Assembly (NCBI GenBank): GCA_021840555.1
Contig: JAKBXW010000006.1
Location: forward strand, 1 to 41,605
Origin: Nitrospirota bacterium
GTDB taxonomy: Bacteria > Nitrospirota > Leptospirillia > Leptospirillales > Leptospirillaceae
Length of the DNA: 41,605 nt
Direction of reading: 5' to 3'
The position numbers and the translations under genes are program-made. The notes beneath the pieces are model-generated. The model was not told where the DNA came from, searched no databases, and saw only the letters and a program-made list of their open reading frames with translations. Below, piece by piece: positions 2,752 to 18,045 of this stretch (within the stretch, counting starts at the first letter, position 1; every line of letters begins with the position of its first letter).

Positions 2752-3690
2752 TCACCCCCGTCCGGGCCGAAAGGGAGGTTCCTGATCTTTTCTCCGCCCG
2801 GGGGGACGGCCTCCAAAGGGGATCTGTCCGGATTTTCCGGCCCTTCGCACGGCATTCCGCCGCCACCTGGCGATGGTCTCGGGCGTTATTTTAAGGACGG
2901 CCTCCGGGTCATAAAGGCGCCGTTCCCGGAGTCTTCCGTTTCTTATCGATTCGATGCGGAGAACGACCGGAATCCGGCCTCCCTCCACCCATTCCTCGAA
3001 CTCCTTTGGACGCAATCCCAGCTCACGCCTGACTTCCCTATCCCCCCAGAGAGAACGGACCCAGTCCTGAAAATCCCGCTCCATCCGGCGTTCCCTTTCG
3101 GCCTCCAGTCGGACCCTCTTTTTTTCCTCCCTCAGGAAGGCCCGGGCCTTTCTGAAATTCTCGATGATCTCTTTCCGGGGAAGCAGGTTTCCATGGTCCG
3201 CCATCATCCGTTCAACTCCCAGAGCGATCGGCCGATCCAGATTCCCTGTGAAACGAATCTTTTCCGGAGGAAGTCCGGAGAGAGCCAGGGCATAGGTCCG
3301 CCACGGCTCCTGGGTAAGAAGGATGAAGCGAACGACCGGATCGGGTTCTCCCCCGACCTTGTCGTACAGAAGCCTGGAGATGGCGGCTCTGATGTTGTCC
3401 AGCGTTTCGGGAGAGGCAAGGTCGATGATCTCTCCCGACACCCGGCCAGCGACAGCCTTCAGGTGGTCCTCCGACACGCGCCCGGGGTCAACCCCCAAAA
3501 GGGAGAGGTCACGGGCCACCGAGGCCGTCTTCAATGCCTCATAGACAGTCTCAAGAAGGGCCCTGTCGGAGGGGGCGCGGATGGTCCACGCTTCGATCCG
3601 GGAAGGTGAGGGAAGGGGGAGTGCACGTCTTTCGAAGGCCTGGAGAATCCAGACAGAATCTTGCACGTTGGCAGAACCCCTGGCGCTCAT
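2752..3690 (-). CDS. Hypothetical protein
   Basis: 313-codon frame; ATG at 3690 overlaps the stop of nagZ (ATGA), arguing for translational coupling; no family recognised. Confidence 0.7.
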   Translation of the reverse strand: MSARGSANVQDSVWILQAFERRALPLPSPSRIEAWTIRAPSDRALLETVYEALKTASVARDLSLLGVDPGRVSEDHLKAVAGRVSGEIIDLASPETLDNIRAAISRLLYDKVGGEPDPVVRFILLTQEPWRTYALALSGLPPEKIRFTGNLDRPIALGVERMMADHGNLLPRKEIIENFRKARAFLREEKKRVRLEAERERRMERDFQDWVRSLWGDREVRRELGLRPKEFEEWVEGGRIPVVLRIESIRNGRLRERRLYDPEAVLKITPETIARWRRNAVRRAGKSGQIPFGGRPPGRRKDQEPPFRPGRG

Positions 3691-4673
3691 CGGCCCACTC
3701 CCCGGAAGGGGTTCGCCCGCATCCATTCATCAAAGCGTTCGACGGCGCGGATCGCTGGACTCCAGCCCTCCCGAATCTTGTTCTCCACAGTGTCGAAAAC
3801 CTTCAGCGCGGCATCCCTGTTCCGTAGGACGAGCAAACCGTCGCACCCGGCCGCAAGCGCCGATTCGGCGGCAACGGAGACACCGCTTCTGGCGACGGCC
3901 TCCATCAGGAGGTCGTCAGACAGAACCAGACCTTTGTAACCGAGCCGATCCCTGAGAAGACCGGAGACGATCGGTCGGGAGAGAGTGGCCGGAAGACTCG
4001 CGTCCAAAGCCGGATAGACAACATGGGCTGTCATCATCAGCGGAATGCCCGCGTCGATGGCCATCCGGAAGGGGACCAGTTCCCTGTTCTCGAGGATCTC
4101 CCAGGGAGCGGAAACGACCGGAAGGGCCAGATGGGAGTCGAGATCGGTATCGCCATGGCCCGGGAAATGCTTGCCACAGGGAAGAATACCTTCCGAAGCG
4201 AGCCCTTCGGCGAAGGCCATGGCCAAAAGGCCCACCGACCGGGGGTCTGAGGAAAAGGACCGGTCCCCGATGACGGGATTGGCGGAGTTGGAATCAACAT
4301 CCAGCACAGGAGCGAAATCCACGTCGAACCCCAGACCCCGGAGGGCGCGACCGAGATCACGGCCAGCTTCCCTGATAAGAACCGTATCCCCGGTTTTCCC
4401 CAGGGCTCGCATGGGGGGGAGGGCGGGAACCCCTTCCCTGAGCCTGGCAACGCGCCCCCCCTCCTGATCGACCGCGATCAAAACCCTTCCCGATGGACAG
4501 CTCTGCCGGATTGCCATATTGAGCTCCCGGACCTGATCGGCAGAACGGACATTCTCCCGGAAGATCACCACTCCCGCCGGATCGATCCTTTCAAGGAATC
4601 TACGGTCTTCGGATTCAAGCTCCGGCCCGGGAACGCTGACCCACAAAAGAGTCCCCGGACGCCCCCCCTTCAT
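3687..4673 (-). CDS. nagZ: Beta-N-acetylhexosaminidase (GH3 family)
   Basis: DPAGVVIFRENV, IAVDQEGGRVARLREG, GKHFPGHGDTDLDSHLALP, GLVLSDDLLMEAV; ATGA overlap with rdgB stop. Confidence 0.93.
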   Translation of the reverse strand: MKGGRPGTLLWVSVPGPELESEDRRFLERIDPAGVVIFRENVRSADQVRELNMAIRQSCPSGRVLIAVDQEGGRVARLREGVPALPPMRALGKTGDTVLIREAGRDLGRALRGLGFDVDFAPVLDVDSNSANPVIGDRSFSSDPRSVGLLAMAFAEGLASEGILPCGKHFPGHGDTDLDSHLALPVVSAPWEILENRELVPFRMAIDAGIPLMMTAHVVYPALDASLPATLSRPIVSGLLRDRLGYKGLVLSDDLLMEAVARSGVSVAAESALAAGCDGLLVLRNRDAALKVFDTVENKIREGWSPAIRAVERFDEWMRANPFRGVGR

Positions 4674-5293
4674 GGCCTCTCCAGCGCCAGGCACAACCTT
4701 TGGAAGGCCCGGAATCGATGCGAGATTTTGTTCTTTTCGGAGGTCGCCATGACACCGAAACTTGCCCGGTATCCGTCGGGAATGAACAGGGGATCGTAGC
4801 CGAATCCGCCGTCCCCCATGGGTCCATTGGCGATTCGTCCCGGAACCCGGCCCGCGGAGGCGGCCCGGAGAGCTCCGGTGTCGATGTCCACTGCCACCAG
4901 CACACACACGAAGAAGGCCTGACGATCGGAGCCTGAAAGGCCCTTCATGTTTTTGAGAAGGAGCTCGCGATTTTCCTGATCGGTCGCATCCAGTCCGGCG
5001 TAACGGGCCGATCGGACCCCAGGGGCCCCGGAAAGGGCCGGAACCACCAGACCGGAATCATCGGCAAAGAGAATGCCGGATCTTTTTCCTGACAAGGCGC
5101 GTGCGAAGGCCTGGGCCTTCAGACAGGCATTGCCGAAAAAGGTCTCCGCCTCCTCCTCGATCGCCGGTGGCGGACAATTGGAAGAAAAGGCTGTCTCCAC
5201 AGATACGAAGGGAGGGGCCATATTCCGAAACTCCTCTGCTTTGTGAGGATTGCCGGTACCCAGAAAAAGGAGAAGGCCCCTTTTCTTACCCAT
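4670..5293 (-). CDS. rdgB: XTP/dITP diphosphatase (RdgB/HAM1)
   Basis: LFLGTGNPHKAEEFRN, GILFADDSGLVVPALSGAPGVRSARYAG, GFGYDPLFIPDG. Start at 5293 (MGKKRG) preferred over the longer ORF. Confidence 0.93.
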   Translation of the reverse strand: MGKKRGLLLFLGTGNPHKAEEFRNMAPPFVSVETAFSSNCPPPAIEEEAETFFGNACLKAQAFARALSGKRSGILFADDSGLVVPALSGAPGVRSARYAGLDATDQENRELLLKNMKGLSGSDRQAFFVCVLVAVDIDTGALRAASAGRVPGRIANGPMGDGGFGYDPLFIPDGYRASFGVMATSEKNKISHRFRAFQRLCLALERP

Positions 5294-6239
5294 TCCCGGC
5301 TTTCCCGGAGGAACCATCGCCGCAAAAGACGGGCCGAAGCTGTCCATCGGGTCCCTCGACCTCGTGAACGGGAACGTCCGACAGGAAGCCGGCCGCCTTG
5401 GCATGTCCTCCCCCGCCGTACCGGGAGGCAATTTTTGAAAGATCGGGGCCTCCATCGCTTGCCCGCAGACTGTACGAAAGACGGCCATCCTTCCGGACGG
5501 ACCAGATGACGACAAAAGGGGTGTCGGACTTCATCGCACCACCGATCTCCGAAGTCAGGAGCGGGGAGTTGACGAAAAAGGCCCGCTCTCCCGATGAAAA
5601 ACGGCCCCACACACCGGTCTCCCGAATGGCCGTCTTCAGTAGCATCGACTGGTAGCGGAGAATGGAGCGTCCTTCGACAACGAGGGGGTTCTCTTCCGAG
5701 AGGGTGCCATATCCGAGGGTTCGACAGAGCCTGTCCCAGACCTCGAAATCGAAGGCGTAGGAGGCCATCGCCGTCGTCACCTCCAGCGAAAGCGGAAGAT
5801 TCCATTTCCAAAGATCCCGGTCCTCGACGTAACGGATCAGGTTGGGGACCGGCTCCCCCGGAAAGAAACGCTCCCAGGCGATCATGGCTCCCGAGCGGCC
5901 CATGTCAAAGACGATGTCGGGATCCCCCGGATAAAGGGGGGCGATCTTTTCCATGGCGCTCTTGTGATGATCGAGAAGAACGACATGATGGGCCCTGTTC
6001 CGAAGAAGAGCCAGATAGACGGGATCGAAGGAGAGGTCGAGGATGAAGACATCCTGGCCAACGGGAATCTCCGGAAGGGGATCCCCGTAGTTGTAGGGGA
6101 CGAACGACAGGGGAAGTCTTCCGGAATAACGTTTCCAGGCGGCCCAGGCGGCCCCGAATCCATCGGAGCAGTTACGGTGGTAGAAAATCGTGACGGGTGT
6201 TGGCTCTTTTCTTTCGGTATCGATGGTGGCGGAACTCAT
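5286..6239 (-). CDS. DHH/DHHA1-family phosphoesterase
   Basis: IFYHRNCSDGFGAAWA, VLLDHHKSA, C-terminal GGGGHAKAAGF (DHHA1). Confidence 0.9.
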   Translation of the reverse strand: MSSATIDTERKEPTPVTIFYHRNCSDGFGAAWAAWKRYSGRLPLSFVPYNYGDPLPEIPVGQDVFILDLSFDPVYLALLRNRAHHVVLLDHHKSAMEKIAPLYPGDPDIVFDMGRSGAMIAWERFFPGEPVPNLIRYVEDRDLWKWNLPLSLEVTTAMASYAFDFEVWDRLCRTLGYGTLSEENPLVVEGRSILRYQSMLLKTAIRETGVWGRFSSGERAFFVNSPLLTSEIGGAMKSDTPFVVIWSVRKDGRLSYSLRASDGGPDLSKIASRYGGGGHAKAAGFLSDVPVHEVEGPDGQLRPVFCGDGSSGKAGNG

Positions 6240-12120: not shown

Positions 12121-12149
12121 TTGACCTCAGACAAGTCTGATTCTATACT
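12121..12149 (+). promoter_or_regulatory. sigma70-type promoter with a dyad in the spacer, upstream of the lytic transglycosylase
   Basis: TTGACC (12121-12126), 17-nt spacer, TATACT (12144-12149); spacer contains TCAGAC-AA-GTCTGA (12127-12140). Confidence 0.65.
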
Positions 12150-12169
12150 AAACATGTCAATCGTTCCTG

Positions 12170-12347
12170 CCATCGAACGGGGATTGAGACACACTTCCGC
12201 GGGGCCATGCACCCCGTCGGGAGCGCCGGAGTCCGGTCGGGCTCACGGCTCGATGGAGGTCCGGTCATTATTTCGCAGCCCCGCAATTACGGGCAAACGA
12301 ATAGAAGTGACCGGCTCGGGAATGGATCAGCCATCCTCATCCGGAGG
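12170..12347 (+). promoter_or_regulatory. Candidate structured leader RNA / cis-regulatory element upstream of the lytic transglycosylase
   Basis: Helices CCATCGA (12170-12176)/TCGATGG (12250-12256) enclosing CCG-CGGGG/CCCCG-U-CGG (12197-12220) and CCGG/CCGG (12226-12236); second domain CCGGTCA (12261-12267)/TGACCGG (12308-12314) enclosing TTCG/CGAA and GCCC/GGGC; CCTC/GAGG hairpin over the SD (12335-12347). Confidence 0.45.
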
Positions 12348-12354
12348 TTGCGCA

Positions 12355-12975
12355 TTGAATTGGATGATTCATCAATCCGTGGCATGGTGCCTGAGCGCCC
12401 ATCTTCTATCACCAACTGTTCCCTATTCGCACCTCATCACACAAATCTCGTGCAAACACCACATCGACCCGGTCCTCGTGGCGGGAATCGTCGCGCAGGA
12501 ATCGCGGTTCGACCCCCGCAAAAGTCGTGTGGAAGAACGCATTCATGATGTCTCACTGGGACTGATGCAGATAACGACCCGAACCGCCCGGTGGATGGGC
12601 CTCCGGGGGTCCGTCAAAAAACTCTACGATCCAGCTGTCAACCTTACCTACGGAGTCAGATACCTGGCCTGGCTGCTTCAGAAGCACCCTTACGGAGCTG
12701 ATGCCGTAGCCGCCTACAATGCCGGAAAAGCCCGGTGGCGCCATGGCGGATATGTCAACAGCCGGGGGGCTCACACCGTTGAACGGTATGTCGTTCGCGT
12801 CGTCAGCTGGGCTCGCCGCTTCAGGTTACAGTCCCAACGCGAGGAACGGGAACTGGTCGCCCTCGAGAAACGTCAGCGAAAAGCGGGGCTAGTGCCCCAC
12901 GACAACCGGCTTCTGGCCTGGCTTGACTGGGCTCCCGGCACCCTTTATCCGGATATTGGGCGAATGCCGAACTAG
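12355..12975 (+). CDS. Lytic transglycosylase (SLT domain)
   Basis: ISCKHHIDPVLVAGIVAQESRFDPRKSR...SLGLMQITTRTARWMG...NLTYGVRYLAWLL...AVAAYNAG. TTG start at 12355 is 7 nt after GGAGG; an upstream ATG (12322) is possible. Confidence 0.88.
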   Translation: MNWMIHQSVAWCLSAHLLSPTVPYSHLITQISCKHHIDPVLVAGIVAQESRFDPRKSRVEERIHDVSLGLMQITTRTARWMGLRGSVKKLYDPAVNLTYGVRYLAWLLQKHPYGADAVAAYNAGKARWRHGGYVNSRGAHTVERYVVRVVSWARRFRLQSQREERELVALEKRQRKAGLVPHDNRLLAWLDWAPGTLYPDIGRMPN

Positions 12976-13218
12976 GTGGCGGTTCCGATAGTTGAAGTAG
13001 TGTTCCGCATTGACGATGACGTCATCGGCCCGACCTGCGAGCTTCTTGTGCTGAAGAGACTTGTAAAGGAGCGTCACGCCGGCCAGGACGACAAGACCGC
13101 CTATGGTCAGGGCGACCGCCCCCCTGACCGGATGGCGGATTCCCAGGCCCAGGGAGATCGACACGCCTCCCAGCGCAATCACGATGGTCGACAAAAGAAC
13201 GAGAACCAGAAGTGTCAA
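12889..13218 (-). CDS. Small hypothetical membrane protein
   Basis: TTG start at 13218 placed 8 nt after AAAGGAG; two hydrophobic segments (TLLVLVLLSTIVIALGGVSISLGLGI, AVALTIGGLVVLAGVTLLY). Overlaps the 3' end of the transglycosylase gene. Confidence 0.55.
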   Translation of the reverse strand: MTLLVLVLLSTIVIALGGVSISLGLGIRHPVRGAVALTIGGLVVLAGVTLLYKSLQHKKLAGRADDVIVNAEHYFNYRNRHLVRHSPNIRIKGAGSPVKPGQKPVVVGH

Positions 13219-13431
13219 GGGACAGCTCCTTTTGATCGGCGTGGCCCAGCGTGGCCCAAGTGACCCAGATTGGAAAGCCCGCACATGTTCTGTCTAACTC
13301 ATCAGAACACGCCTACAGGATAGACCGAATTTTCCAAAAGGGCAATGTGTTTCCGGTCAATGCGGCCGGACGCCCCACCCCCCCGAACCCTTCCTCCCCG
13401 CTTTTCGCCGAATCTTTCCCTTATTGCCGGA

Positions 13432-13942
13432 CAGGCCCCCGTCAAAGTCGGGGCAAGGAGCCGAAGGATCGAACCCAAAGAAGCCCATCGCCTTTGAAAG
13501 CAGGGAGTTTTTATTTGAAGGGAGAATTTTTCAGGAATTATCGGGGAAAAGTCAGAAACAAGAGAGAAAAAAAGACGCAGAACGCCTGTGTTCCTTTAAC
13601 GTCTCCGGAGGATGCATGGCCGAGCTCCGAAGATTAGAGTCCGAGGAAGCGTAAGGTCCGGAAAGACTTGTTGGCGAACGTGTCGAGCACGGGGGCGATG
13701 GAGGGAGCCCCCGCCCCGACGAGACGACGAACCCCAAGTAGTGGTGTTCCTGCATGAGGGCATTCCAGCGACAGGTCTCATCCGGAGAGATCGGTCGGAC
13801 GGTCATCGATTGGAGATCCAGGGGACGAGAGGAAGGGGAGTCGCTCATGACTCCCATGGAAACGAAGTCTTTTTCAAAAAGCCAGCGGGAGGCAAAAATC
13901 CCAAATACAAGCCATTCCCAGCTTAACTATGACGGAGCCCTG
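13432..13942 (-). mobile_element. 511-bp internally deleted copy of the DUF4338/ISAs1-type element
   Basis: Terminus at 13432, 229-bp 5' segment identical (2 mismatches) to the other copy at 13714-13942, and a short open tail ...PVLDTFANKSFRTLRFLGL* that may be the transposase C-terminus. Confidence 0.55.
13714..13942. repeat. 229-bp direct repeat, copy 1
   Basis: Aligns to 17695-17923 at constant offset 3981 with 2 mismatches noticed. Confidence 0.93.
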
Positions 13943-13953
13943 TATTAAGATTA

Positions 13954-14933
13954 GGCTATGTTACCTATTCGTGTTGCAAGGCTCCTGATCAGGTGTAGAC
14001 CTGATTCAGGAGATGATTCCCATGAAGAAATGCACATTCCAACGATGTCTTCGAGCTGTTCCGACCATGACATCGGCGCAGAGACATGATTTGCGGATTG
14101 CGATCGATCATCGAGACAAGAAAGACCTGGTGGCCGAGGTGTCCTCGCTGGTGGGAACCCCCACGGCCTGTCCCCATTGCCACCATCCGGAGATCCGGCC
14201 GTGGGAACAGGCCGCCGGGCTCCCGCGCGTCCGGTGCCGGGGATGTCCTCGCACCTTCAATGCCTTGACGAACACGCCCCTCTCGGGACTGCACCACAAG
14301 GATCGGTGGATGTTTTACCTGGAGACATTCAGCGAGGGGGAATCGGTCCGGAAGGCGGCCGGACGGTGCGGGATCAACACGAAAGCGGCCTTTCTGTGGA
14401 GACACCGGTTTCTGGCCTTGCCCGCCTGTTTGAAAGCCCGACAGGAAAGCGGCATCGTCGAAACCGACGAAACCTGGTTTCTGAGATCCTACAAGGGACA
14501 ACGGGGCGGGCTCCCGAGACGGGCCCGAAAACGGGGCGGTCGGGCTCAAAAGCGAGGGCCCTCCCGGGAACAGGTTCCCGTCCTGGTGGTCCGGGACCGG
14601 TCGGGTGCGACCGCCGATGCGATTCTTCCCAAGGACGGCCACCGGGAGACCTTCGCGGTGCTGAAACCCCTTTTGGCCCGGGATGCGGTCCTGTGCTCGG
14701 ACGGGAGAGGGAAAGGTCCTATCGCCCTGGCGGCTCGGGAGAGGAGCGTGGCCCATCGGGCGGTGAACCTGAGCAAGGAGATCCGAGTCTTGACCGGGGT
14801 CTACCATATCCAGCAGCTTCCGCCTACCATTCGCGGCTGAAAGAGTGGATGCGACGATTCCACTCAACTCCAAACTTTGGTTGACTTTATCCCTCGGTCG
14901 CCACGGACTGCAATACGAATTGGCAACTTAGCT
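13954..14933 (+). mobile_element. IS1595-family insertion sequence
   Basis: Imperfect terminal inverted repeats GGCTATGTTACCTATTCGTGTTGCA / AGCTAAGTTGCCAATTCGTATTGCA; near-perfect 8-bp target duplication TAAGATTA (13946-13953) / TAAAATTA (14934-14941). Confidence 0.8.
14013..14840 (+). pseudogene. IS1595-family transposase, C-terminal frameshift
   Basis: Zn-ribbon CPHCHHPE...RVRCRGCPRTFNALTNTPLSGLHHKDRW, DETWFLRSYKGQRG; frame ends VYHIQQLPPTIRG* but the expected tail AYHSRLKEWMRRFH continues in the adjacent frame (to 14884). Confidence 0.85.
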
Positions 14934-15283
14934 TAAAATTAAGTTGCTTTTTCGTAAAGCCAACATCAGCATCTAGAACTGGCGCCACTTTTACTCTAAA
15001 AATGGCTCATTTTTCTCAAGTTTGACGATTTACCTCGAAAGATGGGTTAGGCTCCCCCCTGTTTTTTGTCTAGTTTTACGGGTCCATCATAGAGGCTGGG
15101 TACTGTCGAACCACCTTCGAGAACAATCGCGAGAGAATGAGAAATCCGGAGTCTCGGGCTCAGGGCTTGTCGGCCTCGATTGGGGTCGTGGAGGGCGGCT
15201 GCACGTCGATTGTCGGGGGACGCCTGAAAAAGTCCGGCATGCAGGAGGAGGAGCCGACAGCCTCCTGCCCCTTCGATGTGCCA

Positions 15284-15571
15284 TCAACCGACCGTGGCAT
15301 GAAGTCGTAATCCAAGGGATCGCAGAACTTTGAGAACCGTTGCAAACTCGGGATTTCCTTCTGCAGAGAGAGCCTTATAAAGGCTTTCACGGCCAAGCCC
15401 GGTTTCGCGGGCAATTTGTGTCATTCCCTTGGCCCGGGCTATATCTCCAAGAGCCGCTGCCACAAGGGCAGGGTCTCCATCTTCGAGAGCCGCTTCAAGA
15501 TAAGCGGCCATATCTTCTTCGGTTTCCAGATGTTCTGCCGAATCCCAAAGTCGGGTTTTTGTTTTTTGCAT
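15284..15571 (-). CDS. HigA-like antitoxin (addiction-module antidote protein)
   Basis: MQKTKTRLWDSAEHLETEEDMAAYLEAALEDGDPALVAAALGDIARAKGMTQIARETGLGRESLYKALSAEGNPEFATVLKVLRSLGL: typical HTH antidote. Confidence 0.92.
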   Translation of the reverse strand: MQKTKTRLWDSAEHLETEEDMAAYLEAALEDGDPALVAAALGDIARAKGMTQIARETGLGRESLYKALSAEGNPEFATVLKVLRSLGLRLHATVG

Positions 15572-15581
15572 CTTAATCCCC

Positions 15582-15872
15582 CTAAAGTTTGTCGGCAAGT
15601 TCATGGGCCGTTCTGATATCCTTTTCCTGTGTACTCTTGTCTCCCCCGGCCAGAAGAATAACAATCGTGGGCCCGCATTGCGTGAAATAAATGCGATATC
15701 CTGGTCCGTAGTCAATTCGCATTTCGGAGATACCGGACCCTACCGGTTTCACATCTCCAGGATTTCCGAGGGAAAGCCGGCGAATCCGAATATCGATTCT
15801 GGCCTTTGCGGCTGGATCCCGAAGTTCTGAAAACCATTCGGAATAAGTATCAGTCTGACGGACTTCGATCAT
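15582..15872 (-). CDS. RelE/HigB-superfamily toxin (addiction-module killer protein)
   Basis: MIEVRQTDTYSEWFSELRDPAAKARIDIRIRRLSLGNPGDVKPVGSGISEMRIDYGPGYRIYFTQCGPTIVILLAGGDKSTQEKDI. Confidence 0.93.
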   Translation of the reverse strand: MIEVRQTDTYSEWFSELRDPAAKARIDIRIRRLSLGNPGDVKPVGSGISEMRIDYGPGYRIYFTQCGPTIVILLAGGDKSTQEKDIRTAHELADKL

Positions 15873-15877
15873 GATTG

Positions 15878-15906
15878 ATTGTATCCTGTAAAATACGATT
15901 TTTCAA
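15878..15906 (-). promoter_or_regulatory. Promoter of the toxin-antitoxin operon
   Basis: Minus strand TTGAAA (15906-15901), 17-nt spacer, TACAAT (15883-15878); GTAT...ATAC dyad overlaps spacer/-10. Confidence 0.65.
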
Positions 15907-16003
15907 TTGAGCTTTCAGATCCTCTGGCTTTAGATGCGGATACTGTTAGCATTTGAAGAGCCTTGTGTCCAGTTATAGCGTAATCTTGCATGAAGCATAG
16001 GCC

Positions 16004-16293
16004 CTTCTCAAACGCCCCGAAAACTTGACCGAAAAACAAACGGTCCGCCTTTCCGAATTTCTTAAACTGAATCTGTCGACAGTTCGCGCCTATCTCTTAC
16101 GGGAGGACTTCCAGCGTTTCTGGTCGTTCACCGATGTAAAAGTCGCCGAATACTTTCTTCATACCTGGTGCAATCGTACCATGCGCTCCGGTCTTGAGCC
16201 ATGAAGAAAGTGGCCCAAATGACCCGTCGGCACAAGGATCTCATTCTCAATTGGTTCGCCGCGCAAGGCGCACTCTCAAGTGGCTCCGTTGAG
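16004..16293 (+). pseudogene. ISL3-family transposase C-terminal fragment, frameshifted
   Basis: LTEKQTVRLSEFLKLNLSTVRAYLLREDFQRFWSF...CNRTMRSGLEP then in the adjacent frame MKKVAQMTRRHKDLILNWFAAQGALSSGSVE. Confidence 0.88.
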
Positions 16294-16860
16294 GACCTCG
16301 GGAGCTTTACGGCCAACGTCTACGAGATGCTGGAGTGGTTGAAGACGTGCCGGGTCCGGAAGGTGGTCATGGAGTCGACGGGGTCTACTGGATCCCGGCG
16401 TACGACATCCTGGAGGCGTCGGGATTCGAGGTGACGCTGGTGAACGCCCGCCATGTGAAGAACGTGTCGGGACGGAAGTCGGATGTGATGGACTGCCAGT
16501 GGATCCAGCAACTCCACTCGTTTGGCCTTCTGAAGGGGGCCTTCCGTCCGGAACGTCAGATCGTGGCGCTGCGGACGATGGTGCGGACGCGGGACAATCT
16601 GGTGCGGGACCAGAGCCACCAGATCCAGCTGATCCAGAAGGCGTATACGGAGATGAACATGCCGCTCCAGAATGTGCTGTCGGATATTGGAGGAGTGAGC
16701 GGGATGGCGATCACGCGAGCGATCGTGAAGGGGGAGCGGGACCCGAAGAAGCTGGCGGCGTTGTGTGACGTTCGGGTCCAGGCGAGCTCCGAGGAGGTCG
16801 CCGGAGCATTTTTGGGGGAGTGGCTCCCGGAACATATCATGGCGATGGCCTTCCCGGAGG
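16294..16860 (+). pseudogene. IS110-family transposase fragment, frameshifted and truncated at both ends
   Basis: DLGSFTANVYEMLEWLKTCRVRKVVMESTG | VYWIPAYDILEASGFEVTLVNARHVKNVSGRKSDVMDCQWIQQLHSFGLLKGAFRP...LSDIGGVSGMAITRAIVKGERDPKKLAAL. Confidence 0.9.
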
Positions 16861-17838
16861 AGTGCGCAACGATGTACTGCGAGAGAACGGTGTCGAGGGC
16901 GGTGGCATCAACGTTCGAAAGGACTCTCCGGATCGTAGGCTCGCTGGGAGGGAGTAGGACTCCCTGGTGGGCGACCAGCGGCACCCCAGACGCTTGAGCT
17001 GGTTTTGGGAGAGATCCTTGGCCCAGCGGAAGATCCCTTCATAGGAGCGCTTTCCAGAAAGGACCGCGGCGAGGGCGAGAAGGAGAATGGAGAGAGAGTT
17101 GTGCCGGATCCCTCGGGGTTTTCGGAGATCCTTCACCGTCTCCTTGAGGAGGGTGAAGAGTCCGTTTTTTTCCCTCGAGGTCCAGCGAGGAAAAGGGAAT
17201 CGCTGACATGGAACCTCCGGTTAAAAGAGGGTCATCAAGAGGGGCGGCCAGAATCGCGCACGCCCGGGAGTGAAGCGGACGGACCCAGATGGTTTTCGTG
17301 CGACCATGCGCATAGTAGACCCCGCCATTTCGTCCAAACCCTCGGGCCTCGCCCAGACAGATCCACCCGGCCGCTTTGTAACAGGTTCCGGTAAACCGGG
17401 AGGGGTCCACGAAGGTCTCGGCCAGAAGAATCGGGTGATTGTAGATCTTGATCCAGTCAGACGACAGGCGGCGCAGACAGAGTCCCAATACGCGAGACGC
17501 CAAATTGGGGGTGCGGGTCGTCGAAGGAAGAATGAGAAAACGCTGGTTGTTCGCAATGAAGCGCAACCGGCGAAAGTGCTCGGACGGAACCCAGCCAATA
17601 AAGCGATCCCGGTCGGCACATTTGAAGGCGGCGGCTCCCCACCCCAAAAGGGCCACCCAGGTGGAACCGGAGAGAGCGACATACTTGAGCGTCTCCCCGA
17701 CGAGACGACGAACCCCAAGTAGTGGTGTTCCTGCATGAGGGCATTCCAGCGACAGGTCTCATCCGGAGAGATCGGTCGGACGGTCATCGATTGGAGATCC
17801 AGGGGACAAGAGGAAGGGGAGTCACTCATGACTCCCAT
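16860..17838 (-). pseudogene. DUF4338 (DruA-like) coding region followed by ISAs1-type transposase N-terminus, with at least three frameshifts
   Basis: MTVRPISPDETCRWNALMQEHHYLG + ETLKYVALSGSTWVALLGWGAAAFKCADRDRFIGWVPSEHFRRLRFIANNQRFLILPSTTRTPNLASRVLGLCLRRLSSDWIKIYNHPILLAETFVDPSRFTGTCYKAAGW; then LFTLLKETVKDLRKPRGIRHNSLSILLLALAAVLSGKRSYEGIFRWAKDL and PPSEPTIRRVLSNVDATALDTVL in other frames. Confidence 0.82.
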
Positions 17839-17923
17839 GGAAACGAAGTCTTTTTCAAAAAGCCAGCGGGAGGCAAAAATCCCAAATACAAGCCATTCCC
17901 AGCTTAACTATGACGGAGCCCTG
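17695..17923. repeat. 229-bp direct repeat, copy 2
   Basis: See copy 1 at 13714-13942. Confidence 0.93.
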
Positions 17924-18045
17924 ATTGCCGGAATTTGCGGCTTTTCCGAATGCATGTCCTGTGATATCCTCGAAAAATAAGCCTTTCGCTCACCGCGGGG
18001 ACTCAAAGCCCCCGCCTCAAGAAAAACCAATTAAAGGAGGTATTC

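Follow-up and report, generated by a model that had tools for sequence, protein, structure and literature searches.

A decayed 4.5-kb insertion in a Nitrospirota genome, bordered by DruA-ISAs1 element copies and enclosing a toxin-antitoxin pair

Background

Insertion sequences of the ISAs1 family generate target duplications of about 8–10 bp, and the usual member consists of a single uninterrupted transposase gene without an extra domain. The element described here resembles this family in the DDE_Tnp_1_assoc domain and the match to model NF033564 seen in its intact relatives, and in inverted ends starting with CAGG. It differs in a DruA domain of about 200 aa fused in front and in a conserved frameshift that splits the gene; DruA-ISAs1 elements measure 1.9–2.1 kb, and both copies reported here are defective. 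DruA itself is known from the Druantia anti-phage system. In contrast to Druantia, where druA is accompanied by other dru genes, the DruA of our locus sits before transposase domains, and the protein had no PADLOC match.

With respect to its architecture, the locus is comparable to composite transposons, in which other genes lie between two copies of one IS and the target duplication is found at the outer ends; however, its interior consists mostly of decayed IS fragments, and neither IS copy is functional. Pseudo-compound transposons and translocatable units, as described for IS26 (PMC7986276) and for the IS1595-family element ISApl4 (PMC12561309), likewise have direct copies, and one repeat plus the interior can be gained or lost by recombination. 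The transposase family of the present element is a different one, and no sign of circles or cointegrates was seen. Finally, the toxin-antitoxin pair inside the locus corresponds to the HI1419/HI1420 (HigBA-like) type II modules in its toxin-first order and in scoring well above both model cut-offs, and differs from them only in its setting among IS fragments.

Outer ends, target duplication and empty site

The window, i.e. the whole stretch of 41,605 nucleotides that was analysed (GenBank GCA_021840555.1, contig JAKBXW010000006.1), contains a 4.49-kb segment whose two outer ends are directly adjoined by the same 9-mer.

13423–13431, no strand: target duplication ATTGCCGGA, left copy (window sequence; one 9-mer-like site at the equivalent place in G001 and G003)
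17924–17932, no strand: target duplication ATTGCCGGA, right copy (window sequence)

On the forward strand of the window, the 9-mer occurs at these two places only. The terminal 17 bp of the segment, CAGGCCCCCGTCAAAGT and the reverse-complemented CAGGGCTCCGTCATAGT, form an inverted repeat with 14 of 17 positions identical. Both features had been proposed in a sequence-only reading of the window, and their exact positions and alignment hold. The probability that 9 nt agree by chance at any one specified pair of positions is about 5e-6, and only 2 of the 36,985 position pairs at the exact insert spacing in the window, this pair included, have such a match. Together with the empty sites in two related genomes (see below), these match statistics rule out a chance origin of the duplication.

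With the left flank (12121–13422) as query, 40 related genomes were searched. In the two sister species that are the closest relatives (G001 and G003, 85–86%), the two flanks directly adjoin each other and the junction reads ..TTTTCCGGCATTT and ..TTTGCCGATTTT, respectively, in place of the ATTGCCGGA-insert-ATTGCCGGAATTT of the window; the flanks are contiguous as well in the more distant G007 and G009. Since G001 and G003 have a single 9-mer-like site between contiguous flanks, the 4.49 kb represent a net insertion with a duplicated target, and the proviso made beforehand that the flanks might never have adjoined each other falls away. As judged from these alignments, the insertion was acquired after the split from the species with contiguous flanks. 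The empty site demonstrates the insertion, not the number of steps by which it arose.

At the equivalent intergenic region, G013 carries 2.5 kb of DNA encoding two lipoprotein/OmpA-like genes (L039, G013:C36, about 3361–5913), and G005 is likewise different there. A role of this region as a hotspot for the DruA-ISAs1 element was considered and rejected, as by ORF reading the G013 insert consists of the lipoprotein/OmpA-like genes and includes no IS.

A search for ends and duplications yielded three clean full-length relatives of the element, of 2031 bp (L004), 1904 bp (L005) and 2127 bp (L076). Their ends follow the pattern CA[GC]G..C.YGTCAAAGT, and each is flanked by an exact 10-bp duplication. 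Because the ends in the window fit the same pattern, both termini of the block are genuine ends of the element, and the concern that intact members might have other termini is answered by their agreement. The duplication in the window reads 9 bp as against 10 bp in the three relatives, both within the ISAs1 range of about 8–10 bp; a 10-bp duplication that has since lost one base is possible. In sum, the outer duplication of this 4.5-kb foreign block is a genuine target duplication.

Two defective copies of a DruA-ISAs1 element

The block is bordered by two copies of one element, which share a direct repeat, R.

13432–13942, minus strand: left element copy, 511 bp, with both ends and about 1.5 kb of the middle deleted (repeat alignment; C-terminal match to contig C108)
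13714–13942, no strand: 229-bp direct repeat R, left copy (self-comparison)
16848–17923, minus strand: right element copy, with 5' end, DruA and the start of the ISAs1 transposase (PF14236, PF13808; frame changes by tblastn)
17695–17923, no strand: 229-bp direct repeat R, right copy (self-comparison)

The left copy joins a 3' end encoding the transposase C-terminus (13432–13713) to a 5' end (13714–13942), i.e. it has both ends without the middle, as the sequence-only reading had it. The two copies of R are in direct orientation and 99.1% identical, with two mismatches (13827/17808 and 13843/17824). Thus, the segment lies between two copies of the same IS, which share 229 bp at 99% and their ends in direct orientation, with ATTGCCGGA on both outer sides and an empty site in the sister species. 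The right copy encodes, on the minus strand, a DruA domain (PF14236, formerly DUF4338; 7.9e-17; 17039–17838 in the window) followed by DDE_Tnp_1_assoc (PF13808, 8.1e-10), which identifies an ISAs1-type transposase that is incomplete in the window. This copy has several frameshifts by tblastn, lacks its inner (3') end and stops abruptly at an IS110 fragment (16847).

Relatives in public genomes and in the genus encode DruA, DDE_Tnp_1_assoc and DDE_Tnp_1 and match the ISAs1 model NF033564, the three full-length elements among them, in agreement with the DUF4338/ISAs1 type first suggested. However, all intact relatives checked depart from the usual single-gene form by DruA in front and a frameshift, and the element is therefore named here as a DruA-fused branch of ISAs1 and not as a typical ISAs1. 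It belongs to a little-described kind of element carrying an extra DruA domain.

In the block's own genome (157 contigs, 81.6% complete) no other copy of the block was found, and only a related 3' fragment is present on contig C108. This fragment (G000:C108:16501-16773, L155) is a remnant of a second DruA-ISAs1-like element, comprising the 3' half only and located near the contig end; no DruA part was found on that contig. Among 20 genomes of the family, no copy of the left element DNA was detected beyond a 67-bp C-terminal match in G007. As no intact transposase of the DruA-ISAs1 kind was seen in the 81.6%-complete genome, the element is probably immobile; the 4.5-kb block, too, is probably immobile now, and its movement would need a transposase from elsewhere.

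A patchwork interior with a toxin-antitoxin cassette

Between the two copies lie the following features.

13946–13953, no strand: TAAGATTA, probable left target duplication of a nested IS1595 element (sequence; partner TAAAATTA at 14934–14941, 7/8)
13954–14933, plus strand: IS1595-family element with recognisable ends (NF033547; 91% to G002:C25)
15120–15243, plus strand: fragment of a transposase gene, presumably ISKra4-like (77% to G004 L095, there within a longer ORF)
15283–16012, minus strand: toxin-antitoxin cassette common to the window and G015 (95% identity, without a DruA-ISAs1 element around it in G015)
15284–15571, minus strand: antitoxin, dnstrm_HI1420 family, HTH (TIGR02684 1.6e-39, PF21716 1.6e-32)
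15582–15872, minus strand: toxin, RelE/ParE superfamily, upstrm_HI1419 family, HigB-like (TIGR02683 5e-40)
15997–16297, plus strand: transposase fragment, presumably ISL3-like (reading frame; 82% to G000:C73)
16298–16847, plus strand: IS110 transposase fragment, truncated at both ends (PF01548, NF033542)

The junction of the left copy with the interior reads CCCTGTATTAA. A matching IS1595 element in L089 is flanked by an AT-rich 8-bp duplication; the copy in the window has lost about 70 bp of the transposase 3' region at about 14863, a gap relative to the copies in G002, G003 and G012. The ISKra4-like assignment is our reading of the protein, and the ISL3-like one follows from its motif. The IS110 fragment has abrupt edges and is 86–87% identical to intact IS110 elements in G004 and G011. 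That the ISKra4-like and IS110 pieces in L095 form one split element was rejected, as they are two separate neighbouring genes there. The interior, then, is a patchwork of mostly truncated IS fragments and no tidy cargo. In the plasmid collection, only the toxin-antitoxin pair and IS110 were found among the matches listed, at about 64–70% identity.

Both models of the HI1419/HI1420 module, TIGR02683 and TIGR02684, match in adjacent genes, and with NF033547 for the IS1595 element this bears out the presence of both inside the block. The cassette is 95% identical in G015 (L090 1501–2232) and 86% identical in G016, both of other genera. The flanks of the G015 cassette were read and are different, so the cassette travels without the DruA-ISAs1 element; its sharp-edged 95% match in another genus suggests that it was transferred recently and independently of the element that flanks it here.

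History of the block

Directly observed are the outer duplication, the empty site in the sister species, the decay, and the agreement of the ends with those of intact relatives; that the block moved in a single step, and in what order the events took place, we infer, as insertion of one element into another, recombination between repeats and misassembly leave identical sequence. The weights given below to three histories and to an assembly artefact are judgements, not computed values.

The best single history, which we adopt tentatively, is that of a decayed composite (compound) transposon of the DruA-ISAs1 element whose block moved in one step. Two direct DruA-ISAs1 copies would have flanked older junk DNA with the toxin-antitoxin pair and IS fragments, and the transposase, using the outer end of each copy, would have brought the whole block into the intergenic site with duplication of 9 bp (or of 10, one being lost). 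Before or after this move, the left copy would have lost its middle, the right copy would have become frameshifted and shed its inner end, and IS1595 would have inserted just inside the left copy, likewise before or after. In favour of a one-step move we count the exact duplication, the 14/17 ends, the contiguous flanks in G001 and G003, and the matching ends with 10-bp duplications in L004, L005 and L076. In addition, repeats 99.1% identical beside a much-truncated interior suggest that the borders are younger than the interior, and young borders around an old interior mildly favour the pickup of decayed DNA over later filling. However, the left copy, with both of its ends, could on its own account for the duplication, the right copy has lost its inner end, no second copy of the block was found in the genome, the three intact relatives have 10-bp and not 9-bp duplications, and the difference of 2 in 229 positions may reflect gene conversion instead of youth. 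Of the transposition proposed in the sequence-only reading, a single insertion event that set the outer ends thus survives, given the duplication and the empty site, whereas a single step for the whole block goes beyond them. The same applies to the toxin-antitoxin pair as cargo moving with the outer ends, in view of a left copy with both ends, a repeat through which recombination or misassembly can exchange the right-hand duplication, and a cassette that another genus has, 95% identical, outside any such element.

A somewhat less probable account, and on balance an unlikely one, begins with one full-length DruA-ISAs1 element that inserted and made the duplication. A second copy then entered, a deletion joined the 3' end of the first element to the 5' end of the second, creating the 511-bp left piece, and the now inactive element collected the other IS and the toxin-antitoxin pair. 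The simple insertion of one element is the commonest event, the deletion-fused left piece requires no composite move, and unrelated IS fragments are nested in the interior, where IS1595 has its own degenerate duplication. However, 13943–13953 and 14934–15119 have no match to the missing middle of the element by tblastn, and a repeat divergence of only 0.9% leaves little time for the many insertions and truncations required.

That the 511-bp deleted (MITE-like) element inserted alone with a duplication of its own, and that a circle or segment with one repeat and the 3.75-kb interior later recombined into the repeat, in the manner of IS26-type structures (PMC7986276), appears improbable. The left copy is complete at either end and the repeats can be exchanged: removal of one repeat and the interior would leave ATTGCCGGA-511 bp-ATTGCCGGA. 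The direct orientation of the repeats fits as well; but a circular donor or a second homology would be needed, and no replication gene was seen in the 3.98-kb unit. Least probable of all is an assembly artefact joining an interior from another locus through the 229-bp repeat. The genome is a fragmented draft, and the stretches of perfect identity within the repeat, 113 and 99 bp, exceed the length of short k-mers; however, the two mismatches tell the copies apart, so that the repeat can be resolved with paired reads or a large k-mer.

DruA domains, transposases and a conserved frame break

In every DruA-ISAs1 gene examined, the frame is broken at the equivalent point of the DDE domain. A +1 break where a run of T passes into a run of C (e.g., GCTTTTTCCCCCTC) is found in L004 (at about 6110), L005 (about 5090), L006, L008 (about 6130), L076 (about 3600) and the C108 fragment (L155, about 7110), and in L010 and L011 the −1 frame continues, at another T/C run. 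The half downstream of the break is intact and matches the remainder of NF033564. On sequence grounds, the break looks like programmed frameshifting.

In most examined cases among genomes of the phylum, DruA lies within or beside transposases. It is fused to ISAs1-type transposases (L076, and in other phyla L004, L005, L008 and L010), to IS701-type (L071, L118, L136) and to IS4/Tn5-type transposases (L072, L120, L121, L086), and adjoins IS66 transposases (L115, L129, L130); stand-alone forms also exist (e.g., L108). The structure predicted for the L004 domain (mean pLDDT 82) has its best match in phage Mu Mom, followed by many GNAT acetyltransferases (E 4e-7, TM about 0.55, 16% identity), which in the predicted model amounts to a fold resemblance and not to proof of shared chemistry. 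A search of the DruA profile against the sequences of solved structures returned nothing. DUF4338 has already been named a GNAT domain (PMC10853773); a link between DruA/DUF4338 and transposase fusion was not found in open-licence PMC papers, at the level of titles and abstracts apart from that paper. It is conceivable, although we put it forward with reserve, that DruA-transposases form a broad class in which a domain of Mom-like fold, joined repeatedly to unrelated families (ISAs1, IS701, IS4/Tn5, and beside IS66), may serve to protect or guide the element by modifying or marking DNA, with the ISAs1 branch using a conserved ribosomal frameshift.

Meaning of the insertion

The 4.5-kb insertion is a real, decayed relic of a known kind, and a one-step origin is the most probable of the histories considered. 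It documents, in decayed form, a toxin-antitoxin pair enclosed by DruA-ISAs1 copies, and its use lies chiefly in annotating genomes and in dating insertions within the genus. Of broader interest is that the DruA domains encountered here mostly belong to transposases: should the domain modify DNA in the manner of Mom, its nearest structural match, a defence protein would be tied to the biology of transposons and would gain a function open to test.
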